A stretch of 64,000 bases of DNA, from contig NZ_UCNJ01000018.1 in assembly GCF_900473965.1 (NCBI RefSeq), forward strand, positions 1-64,000. Reading direction: 5' to 3'. Source of the stretch: Synechococcus sp. UW179A. GTDB lineage: Bacteria; Cyanobacteriota; Cyanobacteriia; PCC-6307; Cyanobiaceae. Each line of letters begins with the position of its first letter. Positions within the stretch are counted from its first letter, which is position 1. The position numbers and the translations under genes were made by a program. Below, one piece after another: positions 259 to 51,256 of the stretch. Below the pieces are notes generated by a model that worked only from the letters and a program-made list of their open reading frames with translations, did no database searches and was not told where the DNA came from.

Positions 259-2208
259 GTGCTGAAGGTCCTTGGATTTAAAAAACCGATATCCAATCAA
301 ATCAAGCCTTTGCTTGGCATCAATTCAGGCCCAACTCCGTTTGGTCAAGGAGAACCTAATTTTGCCAATGTCTCCAAGCAGTATCAGCAATTAGGGATTG
401 AAAGCATCCGCATAGAAGACCTGTCGAATGGAACTTTCGATGTGATGTACTTTTTCCCAGATCAACAAGCTAATCCTGACGACCCTTTGTCTTATCAGTG
501 GAGGCAAACTGACGAAAATTTTCGGGATATTATTGATCTAGGAATGGATCCTTTTGTTCGCGGAGGCCTGAGCTGGCGCAACATGGTCAGCTGGGGAGCG
601 TATGGATTGAACGAGCCAACCGGTTACCCCGGATATGGCCCCTTCTGGTCAGGTGAAAGGCCGCTTTCGACAACAATGTTGGACAAAGGCGTCGAAATTT
701 TTGAAAAACTCCTTGAGCGCTACACAGATGAAGACCTGTGGGGATTTAATCCTTTAGAGCATGGTTATTTTGAAATCTGGAATGAGCCGCAGATTATTGG
801 CATTAACACTGAGATGCAGGGGGTTGATTCTCCCACGCCATACAATAAGAGCGAATTTGAATATACAGAAGAGTTCCCAAGTTACTCATGGGATGGAACG
901 CCAGAGGAGTTTTATGAATTCTTTGCTGACACAGCGATAAGACTCAAGGAATTACACCCGGAAATTAAAATAGGTGGTCCTGGTATTCACAATGTCGGCT
1001 TGGGTCTTCCTTGGACGACGGATTCAGAATATATGAATACGATCGGTGTTGAGTGGACTGAAAATTTTCTACAGTATCTAAAGGAAAGAGAAGTTGAACT
1101 GGACTTCTTTAGTTGGCATTACTACGGCACAGACCCGCAAGATTATATTGCGATGCACGACAAAGCTCATCAACTTTTGGTTGAGTATGGATATAGCGAT
1201 ACTGAACAGATTTTGTCTGAATGGAACACATCATTTGACTCTGGCAATGCCTCAACGCCCTTGGGGGCTGCTCAGGCCAGTGCCATTTGGATGGCCCTTC
1301 AAAATGATGCACCGTCTATCGCCAATGCCCATTTTTACCGTGGCGCTGATGGTCCGTTTGTTCCTGACGGCAACGGATTCCCGATTTGGATTGACAGCGA
1401 AGGGGCTTCTCCATATCAAAATAATTTTGGTGATTATGGCGTCGGCCTCATGACGTCGGATGCGTCTTTCAAGGCCAGCGCCTATGCCTACCAATCTTGG
1501 GCTGATTTGGCACGGCGTGAGAATGTTGATCTTGATTCGTTCTACTCGTCACAGCCTGGTGAGAATGGACTTTATGTGTTGGGTGGATTGCAATCAGGTG
1601 AAAAGGGTTCAGATCTACGTGTGTTGTCCACTTACTTACCCGTCGATTCTGATGACCCTCAGGAAATTATCGTTGATACAAAGGCAATGGCCAAGAAGTT
1701 TGGTCTTGCTCCTTCGTCAGTTCAGATTCTCACGCTTCCCGATGCTTTTGGTGGTTTTTCGGAAGTCGATCCGGATGATGATGGAAAGTATGTATTGCCA
1801 TCTAATGAGCTCGTGTCTATTCAATTTGAAAGCCAAGACTTTGAGGCTGATATGTTGACAAATTGGGCTCCAGAGCCTGGCTCGTTTGATGATGAGAACC
1901 TATATGTCTCTGTTCTGGAGGGGGATCAGCTTGTGGGTGATTTAGCAGCCAATCAATATGCAACATGGATGCTCATTGAAGGAGATGATTCCGATAACTT
2001 CAGCTTGGATTCGCATAGCGGCCGTCTGCTGTTTGAATCTGCGCCTGACTTTGATCGACCTAGTGACGCCGACAAAAACAATATCTATAAGCTTGCTGTT
2101 AAAGCTTTGTCGGATCAAGAAACGATTTTCCAGAATATTTATGTTCAAGTCGTCGACAACATGAAGCAGGATGGGTCTGAACTACTCCTCGATAACAGTT
2201 TTTTCTGA
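259..2208 (+). CDS. GH39-like glycoside hydrolase with C-terminal cadherin-like domain
   Basis: A 649-residue protein from a GTG start. Residues about 15-450 look like a clan-A TIM-barrel glycosidase. The acid/base motif is EIWNEP (Glu176) and the likely nucleophile is in ILSEWN (Glu321), with DFFSWHYYG between them; this is the beta-xylosidase/iduronidase-like GH39 arrangement. The last 80 residues carry the GRLLFESAPDFDRPSD signature of cadherin-like repeats common in exported marine proteins. No N-terminal signal peptide is visible, so any secretion would need another signal. Base composition is AT-richer than the neighbours and terminators flank the gene on both sides, which suggests acquisition. 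The substrate is unknown. Confidence 0.6.
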   Translation: MLKVLGFKKPISNQIKPLLGINSGPTPFGQGEPNFANVSKQYQQLGIESIRIEDLSNGTFDVMYFFPDQQANPDDPLSYQWRQTDENFRDIIDLGMDPFVRGGLSWRNMVSWGAYGLNEPTGYPGYGPFWSGERPLSTTMLDKGVEIFEKLLERYTDEDLWGFNPLEHGYFEIWNEPQIIGINTEMQGVDSPTPYNKSEFEYTEEFPSYSWDGTPEEFYEFFADTAIRLKELHPEIKIGGPGIHNVGLGLPWTTDSEYMNTIGVEWTENFLQYLKEREVELDFFSWHYYGTDPQDYIAMHDKAHQLLVEYGYSDTEQILSEWNTSFDSGNASTPLGAAQASAIWMALQNDAPSIANAHFYRGADGPFVPDGNGFPIWIDSEGASPYQNNFGDYGVGLMTSDASFKASAYAYQSWADLARRENVDLDSFYSSQPGENGLYVLGGLQSGEKGSDLRVLSTYLPVDSDDPQEIIVDTKAMAKKFGLAPSSVQILTLPDAFGGFSEVDPDDDGKYVLPSNELVSIQFESQDFEADMLTNWAPEPGSFDDENLYVSVLEGDQLVGDLAANQYATWMLIEGDDSDNFSLDSHSGRLLFESAPDFDRPSDADKNNIYKLAVKALSDQETIFQNIYVQVVDNMKQDGSELLLDNSFF

Positions 2209-2339
2209 CAAGCCTATGTTTTGACTCGATTATTGACCGCTTACTTCAGGGTTGCCTATCCCCCTTGTTGATATTTTTTTGCTCAATGTTGATGATCGCC
2301 TGGTCTCAGGCCTGACGCTTCGCTGCGATTTCTTGTAAC

Positions 2340-2365
2340 GCCCCCTCTAAGAAGGGGCTTTTTGT
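2340..2365 (+). terminator. rho-independent terminator after the GH39-like gene
   Basis: The stem GCCCCCTC / GAAGGGGC has a TAA loop and one mismatch, and is followed by TTTTTG. It closely resembles the terminator at 55-80, including the trailing GGGGCTTTTTGTTG. A TTG codon at 2362 lies inside its T run and is not a credible start for the next gene. Confidence 0.75.
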
Positions 2366-2475
2366 TGCCTTCTGCTCAGTTCAGCAACACGTTGCGTCGC
2401 CAGGAGAAGCCACCAGGTGATGTGGGGCGACAACCCAAACGTGCCTATCAAGAAACCAGACCCATTGAGCCATTC

Positions 2476-4059
2476 ATGGACATCAACCAGGTGGCGCCGC
2501 AGCTGATCGGCCAATCGCTCTGGAGCGGATGGCTCATGTTTTGGGCAACGCTGTGGCCTCTGGTGCTCGGCTTCTGCCTCTCGGGCTTGGTGCAGGCCAG
2601 TGCAAGCCGCAAGGCCATGGAACGCGTGATGGGATCACACAAGCCGGGAGCGATTCTGCGCGCCTCAGGGCTGGGCATGGTGTCGTCGTCATGCTCTTAC
2701 GCCGCCTCGGCCATGAGCAAAAACCTCTTCGCCAGAGGTGCCGACTTCATCACGGCCCAGGTGTTCATGGTGGCCTCCACCAATCTGGTGCTTGAGCTCG
2801 GACTCGTGCTGATCGTGCTGCTGGGCTGGCAGTTTGCCGCAGCTGAGTTCATCGGCGGTCCACTGATGATCATTCTGCTGACGTGGTGGGGAACCCATCT
2901 GTTCCCTGTTCGCCTCACGCGTCCGGCCCAGGAGAGGCTTCGAGAAAGCGCCATCGCCAATGCCGCGGACGACGGGTTGTCCAAACCGGAGCGTCTTGGC
3001 AGCAGGCTTCGCTCACCAGCGACCTGGGCCAACGCCGCCAGTTATGCGCTGGCCGATCTGACCATGCTGCGCAAAGAGCTGCTGATCGGCTTTGTCGTCG
3101 CCGGCATGCTGAGCGCCCTGGTGCCGGACACTCTCTGGCGGATTGTGTTCATGCAGAACCAGGGGGTCTGGACGTCAGTCCAGAACGCCTTGATTGCCCC
3201 TCTAATCGCCATCATCAGCTTCGTCTGCTCGGTCGGCAACGTCGCCATGGCTGCAGCTTTATGGACGGGTGGCGTGTCCTTCGGTGGTGTGATCGCGTTC
3301 ATCTTTGCGGATCTGATTACGTTGCCGCTGCTGTTGATCTACAGGAAGTACTACGGACCGCGGCTGGCTCTGCGCATGCTGCTCGGTCTTTGGCTCTTGA
3401 TGTCCATCAGCGGCCTGGTCGTTGAGGGTCTGTTCCGGGTCACAGGACTGATTCCCTTGACACGAATCAATGCTGGGCAAACCCTCTCGATCGGCTGGAA
3501 CAGCACCACATGGCTCAATCTGGTCGCCCTCAGCATTCTGGCGATGGCATGGTGGCTGGCTCACAACAAGGAACGCTTCGGAGGCGGTGCCGGATATGCC
3601 CTCGATCCCATCTGCGGAATGCAGGTGGAAAAAGCCAATGCACCCGCGACGCGACAACGCGACGGCAAGCAATTCTGGTTCTGCTCCGATCACTGCGCTG
3701 AGCACTTCGATCAGCAAGGCGAGCCAGAACCGAAAACCACCTCTGAGGTCGGCCAGGACAACTCTAAAAACGCTTCCAAGCCATACAGAGATCCGATCTG
3801 CGGTATGGCTGTTAACCCTGAGAAGCCGGGGAGCCGGCGTGAACACGCCAAGGAGACGATTCTGTTCTGTAGCTCACGCTGCGCGCAGCATTTCGACGCA
3901 GAGCCCGCGAAGTACGTGGAGGAGACAATAGATCCGATCTGCGGGATGCAGGTCCACATCAAGCCCTCCACGCCACATCGACAAAGAGGTCAAGTGCATG
4001 CATGGTTCTGCAGCAGCCATTGCGCCGAAACCTTTGATTCCCGAGAGGCATCAGCCTGA
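2476..4059 (+). CDS. ArsP/DUF318-like permease fused to three YHS metal-binding domains
   Basis: The ATG at 2476 starts a 527-residue protein. An in-frame TTG 114 bases upstream falls in the preceding terminator and is rejected. Residues 1-370 form about eight to ten membrane helices of the UPF0718/DUF318 permease type, with a Cys-containing SSSCSYAA segment in the place where ArsP has its Cys site. Three YHS domains follow, beginning DPICGM at residues about 377, 439 and 486. Each has a later Cys pair in an FCS.xCA.xFD pattern. YHS domains bind soft or heavy metals in copper ATPases and mercury/arsenic systems, so metal or metalloid efflux is the best inference. The substrate is not determined. 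Confidence 0.65.
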   Translation: MDINQVAPQLIGQSLWSGWLMFWATLWPLVLGFCLSGLVQASASRKAMERVMGSHKPGAILRASGLGMVSSSCSYAASAMSKNLFARGADFITAQVFMVASTNLVLELGLVLIVLLGWQFAAAEFIGGPLMIILLTWWGTHLFPVRLTRPAQERLRESAIANAADDGLSKPERLGSRLRSPATWANAASYALADLTMLRKELLIGFVVAGMLSALVPDTLWRIVFMQNQGVWTSVQNALIAPLIAIISFVCSVGNVAMAAALWTGGVSFGGVIAFIFADLITLPLLLIYRKYYGPRLALRMLLGLWLLMSISGLVVEGLFRVTGLIPLTRINAGQTLSIGWNSTTWLNLVALSILAMAWWLAHNKERFGGGAGYALDPICGMQVEKANAPATRQRDGKQFWFCSDHCAEHFDQQGEPEPKTTSEVGQDNSKNASKPYRDPICGMAVNPEKPGSRREHAKETILFCSSRCAQHFDAEPAKYVEETIDPICGMQVHIKPSTPHRQRGQVHAWFCSSHCAETFDSREASA

Positions 4060-5030
4060 GGCGATCTCGCCGGTGCTCCAGTAACGAACACGCGCCGGAT
4101 GCGATGTGATGTAGTCGTCAACAGCGGCCTCGGCCGTCTGCTCATTGGCCTGCAGCAGCAGGTCCGACATCTCCTGATCAGGCAGATGGAAACGCGTGAG
4201 GAAACCGGCCACATCCTGCATCTCCAGATCCAGCTCAGGACGACCAAGCGCATGAATCCACTCGATACCGCCGAACACGCGTTGCGGATCCTGCAGAAAA
4301 CGCAACTTGTAACGAGCGAACATCCAGTGGGGTGTCCAGCTGGTGACCACGACCCAGCGTTGCTGACGCATGGCCTGATCCAGCACCGCCGTCATTGCAA
4401 CACTGCTGGACGCCACCAGCTCCAGATCATTGAGGCGATAACTCTTGAGTGCTTCGACCGAGGCCTGATTCAGACCCGAACCGGGATCGATCCCCTGCAC
4501 GCGATTGTCGAAGCGGGCCGCCAGGGAACGATCGCGTAAATCAGCAATGGAGGTGAGATCCGCAGCAGGCACATAATCCGGAACCACCCAGCCCAGACGG
4601 CCTGAATACATCGAGCCAAAGTCGACGACCCGATCACGCACCCGCCTGTAATAGTCACGATGCGTCAACGGCAACCACGCCATCAGCATCAGATCCAGAT
4701 CACCACGGGCCAGTGAGGCGTACTGAATGCCGATATCGGCAAGAACACGCTCGACCCTCACGTCGTAAGCCTGCTGGATCACGGTCTGAGCGATGAGGCT
4801 CACCACCTCAGCATCAGCCCAGGGTGACCAACCAAGGCGCAGTGTGGGTCGTGCGGATGCCGAACCGGGCAGTGAACGGCGAGGGGCCTCCACACCTTCC
4901 TCCCCCGAGGAGGCTGAAGAACTCAGCGGGGGGAAGGAGCACTGAGCTTGACCAGACTTGCAGCGGAGATCCCCGCGACCCCAAGGCCTCCGAGCAGAAA
5001 AGCTCGTCGTCGGATCTGTCGAGCGCTCAT
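4051..5030 (-). pseudogene. frameshifted glycine/proline betaine ABC substrate-binding protein (ProX/OpuAC type)
   Basis: The natural start is the ATG at 5030. It overlaps the permease stop as ATGA and has a strong ribosome site (5035-5040). This frame encodes a twin-arginine signal (MSARQIRRRAFLLGGLGVAG) but stops at TGA 4923-4925. The rest of the binding protein (LRLGWSPWADAEVV, then GDLDLMLMAWLPLTH, typical OpuAC) continues in another frame to 4051. One extra base in the six-G run at 4928-4933 would join the two into about 326 residues. It is either a frameshift mutation, a homopolymer sequencing error, or slippage. The 3' end overlaps the convergent permease gene by 9 bases. Confidence 0.75.
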
Positions 5031-5926
5031 GAAGCCCTCCACAGAGACATCCAGGCGCGCAATCGCTCTTGAAGTGATGATCCACGACGACCGGCAAAGC
5101 TCTGACTGAGACGGTCGAGGATCACCGCCAAAATCACCACGGCGATCCCTCCTTCAAAGCCCATCCCCACATCAAGCTGCTGAATTCCACGCAACACGAC
5201 ATCACCGAGACCGCCACCCCCGATCATCGAAGCGATCACGACCATGGAAAGTGACAACATGATGGTTTGGTTGACCCCAGTCATCACGGTGGGAACGGCA
5301 TTGGGCATCTGCACCTTCCAGAGCAACTGGCGATCACTACAACCAAAGGAGCGACCGGCTTCGATGAGGTCATCAGGAACCTGAACGATTCCCAGGTGCG
5401 TCAGACGGACCACCGGCGGCATGGCAAAAATCAGGGTGGCCAGGATCGAAGGAACCGCACCCGTGCTGAACAACATCACAGCTGGAATCAGATAGACAAA
5501 AGCCGGCATGGTCTGCATCAGATCCAGGCAAGGACGCACCAGCCTCCAGACCAGTCGGAAGCGTGCCGAAAGAATGCCCAGAGGGAGGCCGATCAGCAGA
5601 GCAAGGCCTGACGCAGTCAGCACAAGCGAGAGGGTGGTGATCATCTCGCTCCACAACGCCATCGAGAGCACAAGGTTGAAACCGAGCAAAACAAACAGAG
5701 CAAAACCCCCATTGACTCGCCAGAGCCCAAGCGCCGCGGTGATCAGAGCGAACAACCAGGCTGGCGGCCACTCCAGCAACCACTGGGTGACGGAGACCAG
5801 GGCCAAGACCGAAGCCTTGATCACATCAAACAATCCCTGGGCATTGGCCAACAGCCACTCAACAAAGAAATCAATCGCCTGACCAAGCCAACCGGCTTGA
5901 TGGGCAGCAGCCAGGATCAGCGTCAC
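5027..5926 (-). CDS. proW: betaine ABC transporter permease (ProW/OpuAB type)
   Basis: A 299-residue inner-membrane permease with about six helices. The binding-protein-dependent transport signature is around GRSFGCSDRQLLWKVQMP, and a C-terminal IGGGGLGDVVLRGIQ segment is typical of the glycine/proline betaine family. The GTG start at 5926 overlaps the ProV stop (GTGA), and its own stop overlaps the ProX-like start, so the three genes are translationally coupled. The reading frame is intact, although the partner binding protein is frameshifted. The symbol is by family resemblance and substrate is inferred from the betaine-synthesis genes alongside. Confidence 0.8.
   Translation of the reverse strand: MTLILAAAHQAGWLGQAIDFFVEWLLANAQGLFDVIKASVLALVSVTQWLLEWPPAWLFALITAALGLWRVNGGFALFVLLGFNLVLSMALWSEMITTLSLVLTASGLALLIGLPLGILSARFRLVWRLVRPCLDLMQTMPAFVYLIPAVMLFSTGAVPSILATLIFAMPPVVRLTHLGIVQVPDDLIEAGRSFGCSDRQLLWKVQMPNAVPTVMTGVNQTIMLSLSMVVIASMIGGGGLGDVVLRGIQQLDVGMGFEGGIAVVILAVILDRLSQSFAGRRGSSLQERLRAWMSLWRAS
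5035..5040 (-). promoter_or_regulatory. ribosome binding site fixing the ProX-like start
   Basis: GGAGGG lies four bases upstream of the ATG at 5030 on the minus strand. It supports translation of the Tat-signal frame rather than the longer frame that could begin at 5097 and would lack a signal peptide. Confidence 0.7.
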
Positions 5927-7074
5927 GCGCTTGCCTCCATTGCGAGCAGCAATTGACGCGGGCTGATCACGCCCAGCAGCCGCTTCTCGTCATCCAGCAC
6001 TGGCACTGGCTCAGAACTGTTCGCCACCACATCAATGGCTTCTTTCACAGATGTTCCGGCTGACAACGTCTTGATGGCTGATATGTCGAACCAGCCGCGG
6101 CCTGCTCGCAAAACACCACGCAAATGCTGCTGACGATCGGTCACATACACGGTGATGTCTCCTTGGTCAGGCAGGAGTTCGTCCAGATCACACACCCGCT
6201 GATGGAGAGGAGGCTGCGCAATCGACTCCACTGTCAGAACCGACGCCACATCGACGTCGCGAAAAAAGCGTTTGACCTCATCATTGGCTGGGTGATGCAG
6301 CAACCGCTGCGCGGTATCGCACTGCAGAAGTCGCCCGTCCTGCATCAAGGCGATCCGGTCACCGATCCTGATCGCCTCATCGAGATCATGGGAAATGAAT
6401 ACCACCGTGCGACGCTGCTCTGCCTGTAGCTCCAGCAACAGATCCTGCATGTCTTTACGGATCAAGGGGTCCAGTGCGGAGAAGGCCTCATCCATCAGCA
6501 AAATCGGCGGGTCAAGGGCCAGGGCTCTGGCCAGACCAACCCTCTGCTGCATTCCCCCAGACAACTCGCGTGGGCGTTTTCGGGCCTCTGCGGCCAGCCC
6601 TACACGCTCAAGCGCCTTCATGGCACGATCGATCCTCGGCTTGCGGGGCATGCCCGCAACCTCGAGTCCAAAAGCAGCATTTTCAAGCACGCTGCGATGG
6701 GGGAAGAGCGCGAACGACTGAAAAACCATCGCCATCTGATGACGGCGCAGCTCCGCCAGCTGCTGTGTCGTCATCGCGCTCAGCGAAAAGCCCTGGACAG
6801 TCACCTCTCCCTCGCAGGGAGAGATCAGACCATTCAACATTCTCAGCAGAGTGGATTTACCTGAACCGGAAAGACCCATCACCACAAAGATCTCGCCGGC
6901 GAGAATCTCCATCGAGACATCCTGGACAGCAGCCCGCACGCCACGACTGGCATAGAGATGCTCAGGATCCACGCCTGAACGCAGCTGCTTAATCAACTCA
7001 GAGGAAGATCTGCCAAAAAGCTTCCAAACCGACTCGATAGAGATCTCTGATTGCACTTCAGAGCCTCCCTCCAA
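5923..7074 (-). CDS. proV: betaine ABC transporter ATP-binding protein with CBS domains (ProV/OpuAA type)
   Basis: A 383-residue ATPase and first gene of the importer operon. The Walker A motif GLSGSGKST is at residues 67-75, followed by the Q loop (MVFQSFALFPHRSV), signature ELSGGMQQR and Walker B PILLMDEAFSALD. The longer N-terminus before the ABC core is characteristic of ProV. The C-terminal 110 residues form a CBS pair, which in OpuA senses ionic strength and gates osmotic uptake. It is divergently arranged from the betaine-synthesis remnants at 7300-8594. The gene is intact. Confidence 0.85.
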   Translation of the reverse strand: MEGGSEVQSEISIESVWKLFGRSSSELIKQLRSGVDPEHLYASRGVRAAVQDVSMEILAGEIFVVMGLSGSGKSTLLRMLNGLISPCEGEVTVQGFSLSAMTTQQLAELRRHQMAMVFQSFALFPHRSVLENAAFGLEVAGMPRKPRIDRAMKALERVGLAAEARKRPRELSGGMQQRVGLARALALDPPILLMDEAFSALDPLIRKDMQDLLLELQAEQRRTVVFISHDLDEAIRIGDRIALMQDGRLLQCDTAQRLLHHPANDEVKRFFRDVDVASVLTVESIAQPPLHQRVCDLDELLPDQGDITVYVTDRQQHLRGVLRAGRGWFDISAIKTLSAGTSVKEAIDVVANSSEPVPVLDDEKRLLGVISPRQLLLAMEASA

Positions 7075-7299
7075 GCCTGAGCTGCTTATAGCAGTGGCCT
7101 GATCTCTGATCAGCGGTCAGGAGCCATCCGTTTGCCACAAAGGCTTCGTCCGCGTAGCTGACGGCTCTAAACGCCGAGATTAGGTTGCCAATTGAGCCCA
7201 TTTCGTAACGTCGACGTAGCTCAGAGAGTCGGTGACGAGCTGCCAGACAGCGCCGCTGCTGTCTTTCGCACGTACCCGCGCATTGACGATCTGAGCGGC

Positions 7300-7733
7300 A
7301 TGACCACACTCAGAAACCACCCGTTAGCGGAATCCGGTGATGCGCAACGCTTCGGGCAGCGACCCGAACGCGTTAAAGAAACAGGTCATTATCAACAGGA
7401 ATCCATCGAACAGTTTGCGGACCGCTGGGATCGCCTGATTGATTGGGATGCCAGAGAAGAAGCTGAGGGCAACTTCTTTGTTCGGCTACTGCACAAACAT
7501 GGCGCCCGCTCGGTGCTGGATGTGGCCAGAAGAACAGGATTCCATTCCGTCAGACTTCTGCGCGAGGGGTTCAACGCCGTGATTTGCCTGGGCAACTCAT
7601 TCACCCATCTCTTCCGCGAGCGAGATCGTCGCAAGGCTTTGGCCGAGTACTACGCGGCCACGATGATCCCGACTTCTACATGCATGTGGCTGAGGAGGAC
7701 TATCTGTTCGACACGGAAATCACAGCGATCTGA
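7300..7733 (+). pseudogene. degenerate glycine/sarcosine N-methyltransferase (GSMT)
   Basis: It begins MTTLRNHPLAESGDAQ and contains recognisable GSMT blocks: QFADRWDRLIDWDAR, VLDVA..TGFHSVRLL and AVICLGNSFTHLF. The family makes sarcosine and dimethylglycine from glycine using SAM. At about 7572 LLREGF jumps straight to AVICLGN, so the stretch that normally completes the SAM site is missing. At about 7655-7662 the frame changes, and the tail DDPDFYMHVAEEDYLF ends at TGA 7731-7733. About half of a normal roughly 270-residue enzyme remains. The usual Gly-rich SAM loop also reads VARRTGF. It cannot be active. The original stop lies three bases before the next gene. Confidence 0.8.
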
Positions 7734-7736
7734 GCG

Positions 7737-8594
7737 ATGACGAGCACCTATTCCGCAGCAGCCAGCACTGCAGCGCACTACGACGACAGTGACGATGCCA
7801 ATCGGTTTTACGCAGGCATCTGGGGCGGCAAGGACATTCATATCGGCCTCTATGAGAGCCCAGAGGAGCCGATCGCAACTGCAAGCCGTCGCACTGTCGA
7901 CGCGCTGATCGCACTGATGGGGCAGCCTCTACCCTCAAACGAAGCAACCACACTGCAGGTTGTGGACTTCGGGTCCGGTTGCGGAGGTGCAGCCAAACGA
8001 CTCCGTGGCAGCCCTGGGATCCGGGTGGACGCCATCAACACCTCCGCGGTTGAGAACAACCGACATCGGCTGCTCAATCAAGAGGCCGGCCTCTCTGAGC
8101 GGATCACTGTTCATGACGCATCCTTCGAGGCGGTGCCTCTCGCCGATGGCTGCGCCGATGTGGTCTGGAGTCAGGACGCGATTCTCAACTCCGATGAGCG
8201 TCGAATGGTGATGAGGGAAGCAGCCCGTTTGCTGAAACCAGGCGGTGTGATGGTGATGACCGACCCCATGGCAGCCGATGGCGTACAGACTGAGTAACTC
8301 ACGGCAATTCTCGATCGCATTCACCTTGCTGATCTCGGATCACCCGAGCGTTATCACCGCTGGGCAAGCAAAGTGGGACTAACAAGGACTGCTTGGCATG
8401 ACCACACACCAATGCTGATCGAGCACTACGGCAAAGTGCGCCTGGAATTGCGACGACGTCGGCAGGATCTGGAATGCAGCATCACTCCCGTTTCTCTGGA
8501 GCGAATGGACGCCGAGCGTGGCCATTGGGTTGATGGTGGACAGTCAGGAAAGCTCAGTTGGGGCTTGATGCGTTTCAACAAACCCCTGAACTGA
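7737..8594 (+). pseudogene. sarcosine/dimethylglycine N-methyltransferase (SDMT) interrupted by an in-frame TAA
   Basis: The frame is open from ATG 7737, breaks at TAA 8295-8297, then continues in the same frame to TGA 8592-8594, giving 285 codons, the usual SDMT size. The first 186 residues include the SAM motif VVDFGSGCGG and the SDMT-type VWSQDAILNSDERR. The part after the stop still reads as SDMT (YHRWASKVGLTRTAW, HWVDGGQSGKLSWGLMRF). A single C-to-T change, CAA to TAA, would explain the stop. The product normally makes glycine betaine from dimethylglycine. The truncated protein loses its C-terminal third. The downstream cupin gene starts on the SDMT stop (TGATG). Confidence 0.85.
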
Positions 8595-21465: not shown

Positions 21466-22131
21466 TCAGCTGCACAGCAAACCAGCGCAGAAAGCTTCTG
21501 CGGGCTTCGGGGAGCGATCCCCACGAGCGCGTTTGCTGACGCTGCGACTGCTCTGCAGATACCAGCGCAGAGGCAGATCTTCGCCCTGATTGATCCCGAT
21601 CCGGGTGGTGGTGACCAAAGCAGGGTGGATCAGCTCGACCGGGCGGGGTGCAATCCAGAGGTCAGCGTCAGCGCAGACCGACAGGCCATCACAACGGCGA
21701 TCGATCCCGAACCGACGGGCCAGCAAACCCGGTCCAGCAGCCACCCGTTCGGGTTCATCCGGGAGCGCCACAGCACGCAGCAACACGCCATTGGCCCATT
21801 CAGGGCGATCGGTCACCACATTCACGCAGTGGTGGATGCCATAGCTCACATACACATAAAACCGCCCTGGTTCTCCAAACAGGGTTTCGTTCTGCGGAGA
21901 CCGACGCCGGTAGCCGTGGCAGGCAGGTTCATCCTGCGAATACGCCTCTGTTTCCACAATCACGCCCCACAGCAAACTTCCATCCGCTTGGCGTTTCACC
22001 AACCTGCAGCCCACCAGCTCAGGTCCCACCACCTCTGCAGGACGGCAGAAGAAGGATTGAGGTAGAGCGGGGAAATCCTTGGCGATGGAAGTGGTGGCTA
22101 TGGGCGTGGCTGGAGCAACAACCTTCTTCAC
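21466..22131 (-). CDS. mpg: 3-methyladenine DNA glycosylase (AAG/MPG family)
   Basis: 221 residues, an alkyladenine glycosylase that removes damaged purines. Key blocks: [34 protein letters not shown] with the catalytic Glu, [29 protein letters not shown] and [11 protein letters not shown]. The start ATG at 22131 gives [16 protein letters not shown] shortened, damaged copy of its 5' half, including this leader, lies 3.5 kb away at 25611-25946 in the same orientation, on the far side of an accessory island. Confidence 0.9.
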
Positions 22132-22137
22132 CCAAGT

Positions 22138-22166
22138 CTGACAACGCTGCTTTCAGAAGAGATAAT
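22138..22166 (+). promoter_or_regulatory. likely sigma70-type promoter of the Nif11-leader precursor gene
   Basis: CTGACA at 22138-22143 and GATAAT at 22161-22166 are 17 bases apart, and the start codon is 23 bases past the -10 box. The elements lie between the divergent mpg and precursor genes. This is pattern matching only. Confidence 0.45.
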
Positions 22167-22189
22167 GAAATAAACGAAGCCCTTGTCCT

Positions 22190-22462
22190 ATGTCAGAAGA
22201 ACAACTCAAAGCCTTCTTGGAAAAAGTCAAAGCAGACACCAGCCTGCAGGAGAAGCTCAAAGCAGCTGCTGATGCTGATGCAGTTCTTGCGATTGCGAAA
22301 GAGGCTGGGTTTAGTGTTTCTGTTGACGACTTGAAGAACGCTCAATCAGAGATTTCTAACGGGGAGCTGGAAGGCGCGGCTGGTGGCACGACCGGGTCAT
22401 GGGCCTGTACTGACTGCGGCTGGAAAACGACTATCGGTATTGACTGGGTCTGTGCATCATAA
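22190..22462 (+). CDS. Nif11-leader RiPP precursor peptide (prochlorosin-like)
   Basis: 90 residues. The leader, residues 1-66, begins MSEEQLKAFLEKVKADTSLQ and continues with AVLAIAKEAGFSVSVDDL, the Nif11-type leader found on picocyanobacterial prochlorosins. It ends GELEGAAGG, a double-Gly site for a protease-exporter. The predicted core is residues 67-90, with Cys73, Cys76 and Cys88, seven Ser/Thr and three Trp, so one to three thioether rings are possible. No lanthionine synthetase or peptidase-exporter is in the window; a genome-encoded ProcM-like enzyme would have to act in trans. It could also be a Nif11 peptide modified another way, or a CxxC metal-binding peptide. Confidence 0.8.
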   Translation: MSEEQLKAFLEKVKADTSLQEKLKAAADADAVLAIAKEAGFSVSVDDLKNAQSEISNGELEGAAGGTTGSWACTDCGWKTTIGIDWVCAS

Positions 22463-22473
22463 CTATCCGGCTA

Positions 22474-22491
22474 CAGGGGCAAAAGCCCCTG
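22474..22491 (+). other. hairpin alternative to the precursor-gene terminator
   Basis: CAGGGGC, loop AAAA, GCCCCTG forms a perfect 7-bp stem 11 bases after the precursor stop. Its right arm (22485-22491) is also the left arm of the terminator stem that follows, so the two structures exclude each other. Confidence 0.6.
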
Positions 22492-22508
22492 CCGCCGCAG
22501 GGGTTTTT
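22486..22508 (+). terminator. rho-independent terminator of the precursor gene
   Basis: CCCCTGC, loop CGCC, GCAGGGG followed by TTTTT. It is a strong stem that competes with the hairpin at 22474-22491 for CCCCTG. Confidence 0.8.
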
Positions 22509-22690
22509 ATTTCTTCAATCACCCCATACCCACCATCAATCAGACCCAAATAGCATCCGATACCTGGCACCACTGACAACAAAACAGTCAAAGCTTTCAC
22601 ACGCCCAACCGCCTAATCCATCCACAAAAAATACAAGGCAGAGCAAATAAAGCCTCAGCTTTCTTTAGTCCTACATCTACCCTTATTCCC

Positions 22691-23014
22691 TCAACGCAAC
22701 TGCCAAAACCTTCGCTCCCTATCACCATCACGGATGCCATTCGCCTTGCGAAATCTCGCCGCAACTTGATACCACTCCTCTGGGATTTGATTGAGCCGAA
22801 CATCAAAAGCAAAAGGGAGTTGCTGCTGTCCTGGTGAGACCCGTTTCTTCTTGCTTCTACTGCTCCCAACCAATCGCCTCAGCATCCTTGAGCCCCAATG
22901 GCACTTCGCTCCTCCCTTGGCGTGATGGCGATACTTCTGGCAGAACCGCTCATATCGCCTGGAGCATCCCTTCAGGCTTGATGCCAGTTGCAGAAAGCTT
23001 GGATGCCACGCCGA
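22691..23014 (-). pseudogene. C-terminal remnant of a Y1/REP-associated tyrosine transposase
   Basis: An open frame with the sequence AWHPSFLQLASSLKGCSRRY then FCQKYRHH and KCHWGSRML, ending with a Lys/Arg-rich segment and FDVRLNQIPEEWYQVAARF. From memory this matches the C-terminal part of Y1-type (RAYT-like) transposases in picocyanobacteria. The N-terminal catalytic half with HUH and Tyr is absent. Sequence upstream in the same frame (to 23170) does not look related. The identification is by recall and should be treated as tentative. Confidence 0.45.
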
Positions 23015-23465
23015 CATTGAGCTGAATCGTAGAGCCCTGTACAAGTTGTTTTCCCAGTTAAAAGACCCAACCAAATGCTGAAAAGAAACAACAATGCTGT
23101 GGCAGCTCTTCAAGCAGATCAAAAAAATTTTGAATGCAGGTCTACTCCTGAAACAACTTTTAGGTCCCAATTACTTGAAATTAGTAGCAAAATCCTCAGT
23201 GCGGTTTGGCACAGCACAGATTTCATTGGATCAGAGAAGACTCACAGATTTAGCAGTGCTCGAATATATCGCAAAGCGGCTCTTACGACAGGCTTTTTCG
23301 TTGGCGTACTGGAAGAAAATTTCGAGCTGCTATTTGCGGGGTTGCACCTCTGAATTTGCCCATTTATTTATAGACGCTGGGTTCACTTTGATGATCTATT
23401 TTATGGGCGATACCGGATTTGCACAATGAGAGAATGGCTCATCAATTAATTACAAGAGAGATTGA

Positions 23466-23657
23466 ATGAGCCGAGACGATAAACAACAATCCAATATCCA
23501 GCAGCATATCGTGCGGGTGGTCGCGGGGCTAATCATCATTAAATACTCCTTCAAAGCTTCGCCGAAGGATGACATCGTTGACGGAATATCCGACACAAGA
23601 CAAGATTATACTTTCACGAAACACATCAAGGAGTTATTGCAATTTAATCATTATTAA
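23466..23657 (+). CDS. short hypothetical frame in the island
   Basis: 63 residues, MSRDDKQQSNIQQHIVRVVA..., with AGAGAG about five bases upstream of the ATG. One modest hydrophobic patch (VVAGLIIIKY). No homology is recognised and the surroundings are gene-poor, so it may be a chance frame. Confidence 0.25.
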   Translation: MSRDDKQQSNIQQHIVRVVAGLIIIKYSFKASPKDDIVDGISDTRQDYTFTKHIKELLQFNHY

Positions 23658-23769
23658 CACCGCCCTTAAGGATGATCCAACAACCGCATCATGCATAAAC
23701 AAAAATATAACAAAAAGGATTCAGAGGAAGGGCAAGGAAAATAATTTGAGCAAGAGAGATACTATTTTT

Positions 23770-24948
23770 TCAAGACAAATTCGCAGTCGGCTGGTCGGTA
23801 TAGCCGATAGAGTGATCTTGATGGTGTCTAAGATCTTTTGGATAGTATTCGGTGGGTTGCATTGGATTGGCTAGTGGCAAGCCATTCCGAATCCTCTCTA
23901 CGAAATCAGGGTTGCTGAGACTGACTCTGCCATAGGCTACGGCTTCGGCAAGACCTTCAAGTACACGCCTTCCTCCTGTTTCAGCTGTATATCCTGAGTT
24001 TGCAACTAAATTTCCGTTGTAATATTTGCGCAGGTCGTCAAGACCTTGGACTGGGCATTTGCCGTGATAACCCATCCTTTCATTGACTTGATCCATGATC
24101 TGAATGTAGGCAAGATCATATTGATTCAATTCAGACAGCACATAACGGAATAATTCATTGTTATCTGGGCTGCCCATGCCTCCATAGGCGTTATTTGGCG
24201 AAATCTTGATTCCTATTCGACGGCTAGAAAACTCTTTTGATACTCTCTCCAGAATCTCTTTGAGGAACCGAAAGCGATTGGCAAAAGTGCCGCCATATTC
24301 ATCTGTTCTCTGGTTTGAGCAAGACTCAAGAAAGGTTGATATTAAATAACCGTTGGCTGCATGAATTTCAATGCCATCAAACCCAGCTAATTTACAATTC
24401 GCTGCCGCCACCCCCCAATCTTCGACAATCGTAGCGATTTCACTTTTGCTCAGCTCTCGAGGAACCTCATAATCTGCAACCTCTCCAGAGGCCAAGGTCA
24501 CACCGGGTCTCACTCCTGGTGAGCCGGGAATAATTGAAATAGCACTGGGTGCCACCACACGCTCACCAGCCGGCAAAAAAGAACTATGACTTCCTCTTCC
24601 CACAAACCAAAGCTGACAAATGATTTTCCCGCCTTGTTGATGAACCAGATCCGTGACTTGTTTCCAGCCATCGATCTGAGCGTTTGTGTAGATTCCTGGC
24701 GCTCCAAACCATCCTTCGGCCATTGGACTGATTGCGGTCGCTTCACTAATGATCAGTCCGAAACTTGAGCGTTGGCGATAATATTCGGCGTTGATCTGAT
24801 CAGGCACGCCGTTTTGCCCGCAGCGTCCACGTGTTAAGGATGCCATCACAAATCTGTTGGACAAATCAAGATCACCTAAGCAAACAGGTTCCAGCATTAT
24901 TTTGATGGCGTCAGAATATAAAGTTTCTGTTTCCGAAGTGAAAGCCAT
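23770..24948 (-). CDS. Old Yellow Enzyme family NAD(P)H:flavin oxidoreductase
   Basis: 392 residues with a TIM-barrel OYE fold that binds FMN and reduces activated C=C bonds of enones. The catalytic pair is in EIHAANGYL (His, Asn, with Tyr after). Other blocks: NRFVMASLTRGRCG at the N-terminus, VVAPSAI, QRTDEYGGTFANRFRFLKEI and the phosphate-binding VANSGYTAETG and AVAYGRVSLSNPDFVERI. The usual LWHVGR segment reads LWFVGR. An internal ATG at 24897 would remove a non-conserved 17-residue leader; neither start has a clear ribosome site. It is isolated in the accessory island. Confidence 0.85.
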   Translation of the reverse strand: MAFTSETETLYSDAIKIMLEPVCLGDLDLSNRFVMASLTRGRCGQNGVPDQINAEYYRQRSSFGLIISEATAISPMAEGWFGAPGIYTNAQIDGWKQVTDLVHQQGGKIICQLWFVGRGSHSSFLPAGERVVAPSAISIIPGSPGVRPGVTLASGEVADYEVPRELSKSEIATIVEDWGVAAANCKLAGFDGIEIHAANGYLISTFLESCSNQRTDEYGGTFANRFRFLKEILERVSKEFSSRRIGIKISPNNAYGGMGSPDNNELFRYVLSELNQYDLAYIQIMDQVNERMGYHGKCPVQGLDDLRKYYNGNLVANSGYTAETGGRRVLEGLAEAVAYGRVSLSNPDFVERIRNGLPLANPMQPTEYYPKDLRHHQDHSIGYTDQPTANLS

Positions 24949-25610
24949 TCGCTTAGTGAGTCGCTATTCTTTCTTTCTATAAATGATCTACTCCGTTGTC
25001 AAGCGAGCCGGTACGCGATTAAAAATCAATACTTTTTCTCAACGCATATATTACAGCCGCCGCGATGTCTCTAACGTGGTGCTTATTGAAGCCGTATAAG
25101 AGTATTTCATCATCTCAGTGATAATATTCTCACCATCAAAATTCAGAGCCAGGCGTGGTTCGGATGCTTGAGATTATTTTTTTGACTGATGGTGATGTCG
25201 AACCAAGCAGTAAATACCCAGTCAGCGCTCTGAAAATCTCTTCTACGACTGAGCTGAAATTGCCTTCTCGGCAGTCGGTTGTTAAGCCGCTCCATATGTA
25301 AGCGACGATGGCATCAGCAACTGCCACTGGAACAATCCAACGACCCAAACAGTTGATGAACGCAGCTCTCCCACCAACACAAACACGCAACTGGAGAGTG
25401 CCATTGTGGTTCGGAGCGATGGCGGCTTGAGCAAGGAGCTGGATTGCTGCTGCCACCAGGGCTGCGACTCCACCGCTGCCTTAGCCAACTGTGACGTCCA
25501 AGGTCATCGCCCTCCTTAGCCTACGAGCATCTGCAAGCAAGAAACTCTCAAGTAAATCGCCTTCGCAGGCCTCAACCTTGGCTGGCTCCTTTGCTGCCAA
25601 CCCTCAAACT
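24949..25610. other. gene-poor stretch between the OYE gene and the mpg remnant
   Basis: No convincing intact gene. On the minus strand a hydrophobic frame starting at ATG 25507 meets TAA at codon 9 (25481-25483) and otherwise stays open to 25136, with segments such as AALVAAAIQLLAQAAIA and WIVPVAVADAIVAYIW. It looks like a broken small membrane protein, but I do not recognise it. 24960-25130 is AT-rich and shows nothing. Confidence 0.4.
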
Positions 25611-25946
25611 TCAAGACCAGCCTGAGCTCTTCTGCGTCACGGCATCTTTCACGCAATGGTGAATGCGATAGCTCTCATCAACATAAAACCGCCCTGGCTC
25701 GCAAAACAGAGTTTCATTTTGCGGCGAGCGGCGGCGATAGCTGCAGCAAGCCGGGTCATCCTGAAAAACCCCCTCTATGTCCACAATCACGGCCAAGAGC
25801 ACACTCCCATTTCCATACGATTGACGTCTCACAAACCTGCAGCCCGCCAGCTCAGGCTCCAACACCTCTAAAAAGCGAAAGCAGAAGCTCCTTGGCAGAG
25901 CATGAGAATCCATGGTGATGGGCTTGGTAGCTATGGATGTGGCTTA
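25611..25946 (-). pseudogene. degenerate partial copy of mpg (3-methyladenine DNA glycosylase)
   Basis: The open frame translates as [20 protein letters not shown], then [17 protein letters not shown] and RIHHCV, clearly related to the intact glycosylase at 21466-22131. Upstream bases also match the intact copy's start region ([10 protein letters not shown] versus [10 protein letters not shown]), although the original ATG is gone. The catalytic VETEAY segment reads VDIEGV, the C-terminal half is missing, and the end is unrelated (TQKSSGWS). This is a dead paralogue left by duplication or by homologous exchange around the island. Confidence 0.85.
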
Positions 25947-25985
25947 AAAACGTCCCTAGCCTTGACTGAACCCTCCTGATCAATC

Positions 25986-28004
25986 GTGAGTAAGCCCAGA
26001 AGAAAGAGCTCTGGATTCTCCAACACCCCCAAAAGCGAATCGAAAAAAATCAGTTCTGCTAGAAGAAGATTTGCAGATCACACCCACAAAGAGCAGCAAG
26101 CCATCGAGCTAATTAATCAGGGGAAACCACAAGAAGCAGAGCGTATTTATAGAGACTTAATTAAATCAGGAACAACAAATCACATTGTCTATGGAAACCT
26201 GGCTGCAATCTTGGGAATGCAGGGCAAATTTGATGAACTTATAGATCTTCTCAGAAAAACAATTGAGTTAGAGCCCAATTACCCAGACGCTCACAACAAC
26301 CTGGGTAATGCCCTCAAGAAGCAGGGCGACCTCACAGCCGCCATCACCTCCTACAACACTGCTCTCCAACTCCAACCCAACTATCCAGACGCCCACTACA
26401 ACCTGGGCAATGCTCTCCAACAGCAAGGCGAGCTCACAGCAGCCATCAGCTCTTACAACACTGCTCTCCAACTCCAGCCCAACTACCCAGACGCTCATAA
26501 CAACCTGGGAGTTGCGCTCCAGGAGCAGGGCGACCTCACATCAGCCATAGCCTCCTTCAACACTGCTCTCCAACTCCAGCCCAACTACCCAGACGCCCAC
26601 TACAACCTTGGTGATGCTTTACAGGAGCAAGGCAAGCTCACAGCTGCCATAGCCTCCTACAACACTGCTCTTCAACTCCAGCCCAACTACCCAGGGGCTC
26701 ATTTCAGCCTGGGCAATGCTCTCCAGCAGCAAGGCCAGCTCACCGCTGCCATTGCCTCTTACAACACCGCACTCCAACTCCAGCCTGAAGACCCAAGCAT
26801 TTATTACAACCTGGGCAATGCGCTCCAGGAGCAGGGCCAACTCACAGATGCCATTGAGAACTATCAAAAAGCAATTGAGATTGACCCGGCAAACTCAGAT
26901 GTTTTGTACGCCATTGGTCGAGCCCAACAGAAAAGAGGAGATATCAAAGAAGGCGTTCTCTACTTCCATCAAGTTATAAACATCAACCCTCAACATACGA
27001 AAGCACTTTTCCAGCTGAGCAAAAGCATCACAACCAACCAGGAAGCCATCGGATTAGCTGAAGATTTAAGCAAGCTAGACAAAAGCGAATTCAACGACAG
27101 AGAGGCTTCATTTTTAGAGTTTGCATTGGCGAACTGTTTTCATAAAACACTTGACTACGCAAAAGCCGCTCAACACCTAGCCAACGCAAACAGGCGGAAG
27201 CTAATTCACATGAATTCAGATCTTGACCTGCAGATACAAGAGACGATGCGGATTTTATCGCTGTCCGAACAAATTCAGCCTGGCCACCCATGCGACGGAA
27301 CGGGAAGAATTTTTATCATTGGAGCGCCTCGCTGTGGCTCAACATTACTGGAGTCAGTTTTAGCAACGAATCCCAACATCAAAGATCTAGGGGAGTCAAA
27401 AGCAATCGCCCAAGCCTTTGCTCACATTAAGCCAGGGAATGGGATGGGAATAGAACGATCTGAATTAGCCAAAGCCTATGCAAAGGCATCAAAAGAAGCT
27501 TTAACAAACTTTACTCATAGCGTAGACAAAAACCTGTACAACTTTAGATTTGCTGACGCAATAAAATGCTCTATGCCTGCCGCAAAGATTATTCACTGCC
27601 GCAGGAACCCACTTGACAATATCTTGTCGATGCTCAGAAGCAATCTGCGAGCCGGGAACAACTACACCGCGGATCCCTTGGACTCAGCGAAATTTCTAAT
27701 TCATCAAGAGCAGATACTATCCCCACTGAAAAAGAAATATGACAGTCAAATCTTCACATTTGACTATGACAATTTCACAAATAAGCCGGAAAGGCATGCC
27801 AGAGAATTAATTGAATGGATAGGCCTACAGTGGAACGAAGATTACCTACACCCAGAGCAGAGCAAAAGAATTATCAAGACCGCAAGTGTCATACAAGCCC
27901 GTCAGCCCATCAGCAACAAATCTGTAGGGGGTTGGAACAATTACAAAGATCTTTTGAAGCCTGCAGAAGCCGTTTTACGAGACAGCGGGCTTTTCAACAT
28001 TTAA
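25986..28004 (+). CDS. TPR-repeat protein with C-terminal sulfotransferase domain
   Basis: 672 residues from a GTG start. After a basic, Ser/Lys-rich N-terminus there are about nine TPR units (residues about 35-345); six central units are almost identical, each ending ALQLQPNYPDAH. Residues about 435-670 are a sulfotransferase domain: IFIIGAPRCGSTLLESVLAT is the PAPS 5'-phosphosulfate loop (Cys/Ser variants of the common PRSGTT), and CRRNPLDNILSML is the 3'-phosphate motif. The combination resembles TPR-sulfotransferases of marine cyanobacteria that may modify proteins or glycans. The acceptor is unknown. The ribosome site is weak. Confidence 0.8.
   Translation: MSKPRRKSSGFSNTPKSESKKISSARRRFADHTHKEQQAIELINQGKPQEAERIYRDLIKSGTTNHIVYGNLAAILGMQGKFDELIDLLRKTIELEPNYPDAHNNLGNALKKQGDLTAAITSYNTALQLQPNYPDAHYNLGNALQQQGELTAAISSYNTALQLQPNYPDAHNNLGVALQEQGDLTSAIASFNTALQLQPNYPDAHYNLGDALQEQGKLTAAIASYNTALQLQPNYPGAHFSLGNALQQQGQLTAAIASYNTALQLQPEDPSIYYNLGNALQEQGQLTDAIENYQKAIEIDPANSDVLYAIGRAQQKRGDIKEGVLYFHQVININPQHTKALFQLSKSITTNQEAIGLAEDLSKLDKSEFNDREASFLEFALANCFHKTLDYAKAAQHLANANRRKLIHMNSDLDLQIQETMRILSLSEQIQPGHPCDGTGRIFIIGAPRCGSTLLESVLATNPNIKDLGESKAIAQAFAHIKPGNGMGIERSELAKAYAKASKEALTNFTHSVDKNLYNFRFADAIKCSMPAAKIIHCRRNPLDNILSMLRSNLRAGNNYTADPLDSAKFLIHQEQILSPLKKKYDSQIFTFDYDNFTNKPERHARELIEWIGLQWNEDYLHPEQSKRIIKTASVIQARQPISNKSVGGWNNYKDLLKPAEAVLRDSGLFNI
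26274..26885 (+). repeat. six tandem 102-bp repeats encoding TPR units
   Basis: Units of 102 bp (34 codons) begin with CCCAA.TA.CCAGACGC and recur at about 26274, 26376, 26478, 26580, 26682 and 26784. The first to fifth are highly similar at DNA level, with silent and a few coding differences; the sixth is more divergent. The period matches one TPR exactly, so unequal crossing-over would change repeat number in frame. Confidence 0.9.
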
Positions 28005-28062
28005 AAAAAACAGCACTCGCGATGAATAACCGCCAGTCTGAAACTATTGCCAGCCGTTAAAG

Positions 28063-28839
28063 ATGAATCCAGCGCTGCAGCAACGGCGAGAATTCTGCTT
28101 TCTGGTGCTGGCCGGGCTATTTCTAGGGACCCTGGGCATGCTCAACATCTTGGGCCTGACCCGTTTTCTCGAACTAGGCCACATCGGCTCCTGGCCGATT
28201 GTGGTGGCCGTTGGCGCCCTGCCCTACCCGATCACCTTTCTCTGCACAGACCTGATCAGCGAACTGTGGGGAGAGCAGAGAGCGGCCCAGGTTGTATGGG
28301 TTGGCCTGCTGCTCAATGGTTGGGTGGTGCTGATCCTCTGGCTTGGAGGAATCTTGCCTGGAGTGGAGGGTGCACCTGACAACACCTTCTTCGAAATCCA
28401 ACGCCTGGCCTTCGGATCAGTGATCGCCTCTATGGCCGCCTATCTCGCGGCCCAGTTTGTGGATGTGCGCATGTTCCATTTCTGGAAAAGGGTGAGCAAT
28501 GGCAAGGCACTCTGGCTGCGCAACAACGGCTCCACGCTGGTGAGCCAGCTGGTGGACACAAGCGCTGTTGTGCTGATCAGCCATTACGCCTCTGGAGTAT
28601 TGCCTGTGCGACCCGCTGAACCCGTGGCTCCGCAACTGATCTCGTTCATCGCCAGTGGCTATCTGTTCAAATCCTTCGCTGCACTGGCGGACACCCTTCC
28701 CTTCATCTGGATCACGGGTTGGCTGAGACATTGGCTGGAGATCCCAAGCAGCGGTAGTGAGATCGGAGGCGATGACGATCCCTGCATGCAAGTGATGACA
28801 AGCACCAATCCGCTGCCAGGCTTGGAGCAGCAGAATTAG
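28063..28839 (+). CDS. queuosine precursor transporter (YhhQ/VUT family)
   Basis: 258 residues with about six membrane helices. The family block is LPYPITFLCTDLISELWGEQRA near residue 50, followed by a hydrophobic segment and AAQFVDVRMFHFWK. The region LRNNGSTLVSQLVDTSAVVL is also typical of DUF165/YhhQ. Members import queuosine precursors such as preQ0/preQ1 for tRNA modification. No other queuosine gene is seen nearby. Confidence 0.8.
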   Translation: MNPALQQRREFCFLVLAGLFLGTLGMLNILGLTRFLELGHIGSWPIVVAVGALPYPITFLCTDLISELWGEQRAAQVVWVGLLLNGWVVLILWLGGILPGVEGAPDNTFFEIQRLAFGSVIASMAAYLAAQFVDVRMFHFWKRVSNGKALWLRNNGSTLVSQLVDTSAVVLISHYASGVLPVRPAEPVAPQLISFIASGYLFKSFAALADTLPFIWITGWLRHWLEIPSSGSEIGGDDDPCMQVMTSTNPLPGLEQQN

Positions 28840-49955: not shown

Positions 49956-50389
49956 GCCGGATCGTCTCGGTTGACCCTGGACGCAACAAATGCGGCCTGG
50001 TCTTGGTTGATTGCGACAGGGACTGCGTCATCGAAGGGCGAGTGGTGGCAACAGAGGATGTGCTGGACACCCTTCAGTGCTGGAAGCAGATCGCACCTAT
50101 TGAAGGCATGGTGCTGGGGAATGGCACAGCCAGCGACGGCTTGAGAGAACAGCTTCCTCAAGATCTTCCCGTGAAGCTGGTGGATGAGCGCGGCACCACA
50201 CTTCGGGCACGCAAGCGGTACTGGCAGCTCTGGCCTCCAAAGGGATGGCGGCGATTGATCCCCCAAGGCCTGCTGCTACCGCCCACCGAACTGGATGCTC
50301 TGGCAGCCCTGGTGATTCTTGAATCCGAGCTCGGTCGCGAGATCCTTTGGCCTGGACCAGCACCACTTAGAAACGAGCTCTCACGGTAA
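49952..50389 (+). CDS. RuvC/YqgF-fold nuclease-like protein
   Basis: 145 residues beginning MSRIVSVDPGRNKCGLVLVD, an RNase H-like strand with the catalytic-type Asp of RuvC/YqgF folds; VKLVDERGTTLRARKRYW carries the second acidic position and PPTELDALAALVILESELG the last one. It resembles cyanobacterial Holliday-junction resolvase-like proteins rather than canonical RuvX. Translational coupling to the DUF3084 gene suggests a shared unit. It overlaps the convergent DUF3146 gene by 23 bases. Confidence 0.7.
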   Translation: MSRIVSVDPGRNKCGLVLVDCDRDCVIEGRVVATEDVLDTLQCWKQIAPIEGMVLGNGTASDGLREQLPQDLPVKLVDERGTTLRARKRYWQLWPPKGWRRLIPQGLLLPPTELDALAALVILESELGREILWPGPAPLRNELSR

Positions 50390-50624
50390 AGCTGTAGTCG
50401 CCGCCGGCTTCCAGCCTGTAGTCGGATTTCACAAGGAAACGAAGCAACGCGTCCTGAATCAGCGCTCTGCCCAGGGAAGGCTCCACGCTCAGCTCACCCC
50501 GGTCAAACAACCAGTGAAATGTCCAAGTAAAACCGCCGGCCTGAACCTCTCCCTGCAGACATTTGTCTCGGAAGCTGTGCTGGTGCACCCGGAGATGAGC
50601 TGTGGTGACAGGCAGGCGCGCCAT
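50367..50624 (-). CDS. DUF3146 family protein
   Basis: 85 residues (MARLPVTTAHLRVHQHSFRD). The ending RLEAGGDYSFTVRARF and the FHWLFDRGELSVEPSLGRAL block are characteristic of this cyanobacteria-restricted family of unknown function. Its ATG overlaps the pth stop, so it is translated with pth. Confidence 0.75.
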   Translation of the reverse strand: MARLPVTTAHLRVHQHSFRDKCLQGEVQAGGFTWTFHWLFDRGELSVEPSLGRALIQDALLRFLVKSDYRLEAGGDYSFTVRARF

Positions 50625-51256
50625 CAGGCCGGTTCGCCATCAGCAGCAGGCGCCAGATTCACTGCATTGATGGCGTTTCCAGCCCGATCCAGGCCTTGTC
50701 GCTGAATGTGATCGAGGCCGGACAACACTTCCCGAAGCACGTCCTGGAGCAGAGGTTCCTCAGCACGGTTGAACTGACCGAGAACATGGGAGACCGTGCG
50801 AGCACGACGTTCCTCTGGATTACGACCGGGAGCGCCGATACCAATGCGAAGTCGGGCGAATTCCTGTGTGCCGAGGTGCTGAATGGTGCTCTTCAAACCG
50901 TTATGTCCACCTGCACCACCCCGCGCGCGCAGACGCAACCGTCCGAGCGGCAGGTCCATGTCATCGACGAGCACGATCAACTGGTGAATCCCTAGATCAA
51001 ACCAATCCAGCGCTGCACGGATCGAACGCCCACTGTCGTTCATGTAAGTCTGTGGCATCAGCAGCCTGAGTCGAGCGCAACCTGAACCCACATCAGCGAG
51101 ATCACCCTGAAGCTTTGACATTGGCTTAAAACGCCCACCTTCACGGTTTGTGAGCAGCTCAAGAGCCATGAACCCAACATTGTGGCGGGTCGATGCATAT
51201 TTTTCGCCGGGATTGCCCAGTCCGACCACCAGACGGAGGTCACCACGCTTGATCAC
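50624..51256 (-). CDS. pth: peptidyl-tRNA hydrolase
   Basis: 210 residues. Motifs: VVGLGNPGEKYASTRHNVGF with the catalytic His, the MPQTYMNDSGRSI Asn and Asp region, and LIVLVDDMDLPLGRLRLRARGG with GGHNGLKS. It recycles peptidyl-tRNAs released by ribosome drop-off. Three bases separate it from the tatA stop, so tatA-pth-DUF3146 forms one transcription unit. Confidence 0.95.
   Translation of the reverse strand: MIKRGDLRLVVGLGNPGEKYASTRHNVGFMALELLTNREGGRFKPMSKLQGDLADVGSGCARLRLLMPQTYMNDSGRSIRAALDWFDLGIHQLIVLVDDMDLPLGRLRLRARGGAGGHNGLKSTIQHLGTQEFARLRIGIGAPGRNPEERRARTVSHVLGQFNRAEEPLLQDVLREVLSGLDHIQRQGLDRAGNAINAVNLAPAADGEPA

Follow-up and report, generated by a model that had tools for sequence, protein, structure and literature searches.

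The betaine locus and its conservation in the genus

The window analysed here is a 64,000-nucleotide stretch (G000:C18:1-64000) of a draft genome, G000, which comprises 3.06 Mb in 35 contigs and is 99.97% complete. A glycine betaine locus sits in this window, within a 283,750-bp contig. The importer genes proX, proW and proV are encoded on the minus strand, adjacent to and divergent from the synthesis genes GSMT (gbmt1) and SDMT (gbmt2) on the plus strand, and thus form the five-gene betaine module. A cupin gene and aroC follow. Neither a promoter nor a terminator was found when the intergenic region from which the two gene sets diverge was scanned. Next to proX, on the plus strand, lie genes for a GH39-like protein and an ArsP_1 permease with YHS domains (259-4059). 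Among the fetched stretches, the permease occurs only in G008 and, more distantly, in G011, so that this flank is variable too.

The locus DNA was searched against 30 further genomes of the genus, one per species, and the corresponding stretches were taken from 20 carriers. G008 is the sister of G000, with ∼92% DNA identity across the region; the next relatives (G009, G014, G017, G018 and G026) share 86-88%. Between G000 and these six close relatives the locus itself is 86-93% identical and occupies the same site upstream of aroC, which identifies it as orthologous and syntenic. The syntenic locus is intact in all six, among others, and wherever the genus has a complete copy, G008 included, the five genes are intact and in the same order. 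A search of a phage collection returned no match.

Lesions in the synthesis genes and in proX

GSMT is reduced to a pseudogene remnant (7300..7740, plus strand) of about half of the 280-residue enzyme. Alignment with six relatives revealed a net in-frame deletion of 132 bp, with its junction at 7567..7574 (plus strand), and an out-of-frame deletion of 277 bp, with its junction at 7651..7652 (plus strand) and the short repeat ACGCGG at both ends. The family model NF051855 matches the remnant only in fragments, covering positions 1-79 and 120-149 of 259 with 99.7 and 48.4 bits. A functional GSMT would give a full-length match above the curated cut-off of 350 bits, as do the full-length genes of all 20 relatives examined (433-446 bits). 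What is retained has also diverged: 12 residues that are invariant in six relatives are altered in G000 (2 in G008), and the SAM-binding motif carries the substitutions T77R and G78R.

The SDMT pseudogene (7737..8594, plus strand) gives an NF041675 match that runs through one TAA codon (8295..8297, plus strand), which replaces Ser187 by a single-base change from TCA and leaves G000 without the uninterrupted frame of a functional SDMT. In the relatives codon 187 encodes serine, mostly as TCA, and SDMT is free of stops in 21 of them. At positions that do not vary among seven relatives, SDMT has 23 changes in G000, or 22 if the stop is left out, compared with 5 in G008; those in G000 fall on both sides of the stop. 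The earlier note on this DNA had described the sequence beyond each small lesion as well preserved, a description that does not hold for SDMT.

The third affected gene, a proX-like gene for a glycine betaine binding protein (4051..5030, minus strand; PF04069, 199.9 bits), is split by the loss of one base. When G008 and another 11 relatives are aligned with it, the gap falls in a G6 homopolymer that reads C6 in coding orientation (4928..4933, minus strand). Relative to G008, the deletion lies in a variable linker between the signal peptide and the OpuAC domain (4105-4845, minus strand; PF04069). As a result, the RRR-type signal peptide, whose frame starts at 5030, is separated from the domain, and the mechanically called ORF (4051-5097) opens with ∼60 residues in the wrong frame. 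In all 19 relatives' copies examined, signal peptide and domain share a single frame; with the base call as sequenced, G000 lacks this arrangement, which a functional ProX would have. The G000 domain nevertheless conserves each of the seven residues that are predicted to bind the ligand in marine ProX (PMC10087775).

The remaining two genes are open and constrained. proW (5027..5926, minus strand) encodes a permease with matches to NCBIfam models of the ChoW/ProW type and is 97% identical to its G008 counterpart. proV (5923..7074, minus strand) encodes an ATPase with a CBS domain and scores 351.7 bits with TIGR01186, over the cut-off. The alignments therefore bear out the earlier note in its reading of three lesioned genes out of five (a frameshift in proX, two deletions in GSMT and a nonsense codon in SDMT) beside open proV and proW. 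The comparison with close relatives that it proposed places each lesion in the G000 lineage specifically: every one is private to G000 and absent from all complete copies. Since one genome per species was compared, the lesions could be confined to a single strain. An intact second copy of the pathway, which the note named as grounds for abandoning its claim, was also looked for; no further GSMT, SDMT or OpuAC protein was found in the 99.97%-complete genome.

Selection on synthesis and import genes

We compared selection on the two halves of the locus using a codon model of the GY94 type, written for this analysis, which assumes one fixed tree of seven taxa and one ω per branch class. For GSMT and SDMT together, ω is 0.331 on the G000 branch and 0.094 elsewhere (p=7.6e-6). 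Applied to the G008 branch, the test was not significant (p=0.31), so that ω is raised only in the affected lineage, as for a pseudogene pair. A loss common to the sister is thereby ruled out, as G008 is both intact and unrelaxed. By parsimony, nonsynonymous and synonymous changes (N:S) on the G000 branch number 9:7 in GSMT and, stop aside, 13:15 in SDMT; the other genes of the window have 122:707, with N=2 and S=7 for the cupin gene. Together with the 35 changes at invariant residues in the two genes, these data indicate a synthesis pair that, judging by its sequence, is dead and drifting.

The importer genes behave differently. Across the 953 codons of proVWX, ω is 0.117 on the G000 branch and 0.106 elsewhere (p=0.72), with an approximate 95% profile interval of 0.07-0.185 for the G000 branch; values of 0.30-0.35, similar to those of the synthesis genes, are rejected (2ΔlnL 15.4-20.8). 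The earlier note had called for dN/dS on proV and proW as a check, and the outcome goes against it: neither gene is relaxed, with ω on the G000 branch and elsewhere of 0.087 and 0.071 for proW and 0.112 and 0.156 for proV. Its picture of a whole synthesis and import locus being lost hence stands for the synthesis pair and falls for the importer. proX by itself is too short for separate dating: its ω interval, about 0.06-0.40, overlaps with the one for the synthesis genes.

On the simplifying view that ω jumps to 1 once selection is lost, these values convert into rough times since release: around one quarter of the branch (range roughly 12-50%) for the synthesis genes and at most ∼9% of the branch for the importer. 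As proVWX is constrained and does not fit the ω of the synthesis genes, we infer that synthesis died first and that import was selected for a time thereafter.

Proposed staged loss of a variable module

Taken together, we consider it very probable that this gbmt1-gbmt2/proVWX module of marine Synechococcus has been caught after a staged loss, with synthesis going first and import later. In this sequence of events, glycine betaine synthesis was lost first, when a nonsense mutation and deletions, one of the latter between the short repeats in GSMT, turned both synthesis genes into pseudogenes. The pair then gathered amino-acid changes under relaxed selection, while purifying selection, as the codon models show, acted on the ABC importer for some time longer. 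The last step depends on the proX indel, the sole lesion of the importer, which may be either very recent or a sequencing error. The importer would now be functional if the indel reflects a base-calling or assembly error; alternatively, it may have been broken very recently, when a C homopolymer that had only just formed lost a base.

The present state of the importer thus hinges on that one homopolymer. It is conceivable, if doubtful, that the indel is a homopolymer error and that the organism is now a betaine scavenger without synthesis of its own. Apart from the single missing base in a C6 tract, within a variable linker, the importer has no lesion, the binding pocket of ProX is conserved and proVWX is constrained, all of which would fit. 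Six-base tracts are rarely miscalled in modern short-read data, however, and every carrier in the genus has both halves of the module, which would make a salvage-only genotype unusual. We regard it as rather unlikely that a marine Synechococcus has here turned from betaine producer into scavenger, with an importer that is functional and selected and a proX indel that is an error. If true, this would break the strict co-occurrence reported for ProX and Gbmt1/2, and it would argue against recovery of leaked betaine as the sole role of the importer.

Alternatively, all five genes may have lost their function at once and be decaying as one unit, with proV and proW still open for lack of time. In line with this, proX does carry a frameshift, importer and synthesis genes are either both present or both absent in the literature (PMC10087775), and the block is gone as a whole in G001 and G012. 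The codon data argue otherwise: proVWX shows no relaxation over its 953 codons and does not fit the synthesis-gene ω, and on one and the same branch N:S is 22:22 for synthesis and 10:40 for import (p=0.004). Decay as a single unit is accordingly improbable. That sequencing or assembly artefacts lie behind all the lesions has next to no likelihood, even for a 35-contig draft, since the two synthesis genes alone hold two deletions, a premature stop and 35 private changes of invariant residues, too many for random error to be their source, whereas the rest of the 64-kb region is normal and the locus lies inside a long contig. An artefact is refuted for the GSMT and SDMT lesions; among all lesions, only the proX homopolymer indel could be a sequencing error.

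The staged loss we propose is ordinary in kind, being another loss of a module already known to vary, and the order of events is what it adds. Dore et al. 2020 (PMC7522525) reported the gbmt1-2/proVWX island (Syn_GI022) as variably present, in many SC 5.1 strains and not in clade II. This island holds the same five genes as the G000 locus. Their study gives presence and absence, and a term search of its text did not find the word 'pseudogene', whereas G000 displays the inactivation itself, with lesions of different apparent ages. Absence of the module from a marine Synechococcus does not by itself reveal the order of loss; the G000 locus does so, with synthesis followed by import.

Loss of the module is known and recurrent in the genus. 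GSMT and the OpuAC protein are lacking from 7 of 24 near-complete genomes, which fall in five places on a two-protein tree, with low support inside the group of G001 and G012. Neither of these two genomes (L167, G001:C1:361000-375000, and L166, G012:C1:357000-371000) has the block between gpgS and the cupin gene; what remains there is a decayed piece of some 60 bases that resembles the 3' end of SDMT. On the SDMT side the match of both remnants starts at the same base of G025. By this resemblance the remnants are likely an SDMT scar, and absence in G001 and G012 therefore looks like loss rather than failure to gain. The same locus has thus been lost as in G000, but there by a single block deletion and in G000 by stepwise decay.

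Ford et al. 2022 (PMC10087775) found ProX to be missing in precisely those cases that lack Gbmt1 and Gbmt2, and took this co-occurrence, together with the affinity of the protein, as consistent with recovery of leaked betaine. The G000 protein resembles their marine Synechococcus ProX (CK_1944) in its predicted ligand residues and its context beside gbmt1/gbmt2. CK_1944 occurs strictly with Gbmt1/2, whereas in G000 the importer genes outlasted the synthesis genes under selection, with an indel in proX. The leakage-recovery idea can thus be put to the test: if the importer did no more than retrieve betaine leaked by the cell, it would be expected to decay along with synthesis, which it did not. 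As sisters, G000 and G008 provide a natural pair of strains for asking what betaine does in these cells.

The remaining osmolyte genes do not bear out the change of compatible solute that the earlier note had linked to the loss. ggpS is intact in G000, genes for sucrose-phosphate synthase and one BCCT carrier are present and open, and a GpgS-like gene is open (best match NF040724, 367 bits, below the cut-off). With synthesis genes for glucosylglycerol, sucrose and probably glucosylglycerate remaining, betaine is probably dispensable as an osmolyte. The note's further suggestion of a link to lower salinity finds no support either, and nor does a shift to fresh water: each of the 24 near-complete genomes in the genus has ggpS, whether or not it carries the betaine locus. 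As ggpSP occurs in just two of 67 freshwater picocyanobacteria (PMC9361551), the gene content of G000 is marine in type. Taken with the matching literature, ggpS, the betaine module and the Nif11-type leader peptides point to a likely marine Synechococcus of subcluster 5.1.

Elsewhere in the window, a plus-strand ORF (50319-50705) has changes private to G000, 7 of them nonsynonymous and 1 synonymous; this frame overlaps others and may be no gene. A full-length DNA-3-methyladenine glycosylase gene (21466-22131) lies a few kb from a truncated and diverged second piece of such a gene (25611-25913, minus strand). Between the same neighbours, positions 22131-28063 form a variable insertion site of ∼5.9 kb in G000, ∼8 kb in G008 and 0.2 kb in G009 and G026. 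In G000 the site contains an old-yellow-enzyme-type reductase (23770-24948), a TPR protein (25986-28004) and a 90-residue RiPP precursor of the Nif11-leader type (22190-22462, plus strand; TIGR03798, 88 bits). Like prochlorosins, the precursor has a GG site and a short core containing Cys and Thr, and two DUF4135 (LanM-type) matches are found on other contigs of the G000 genome.
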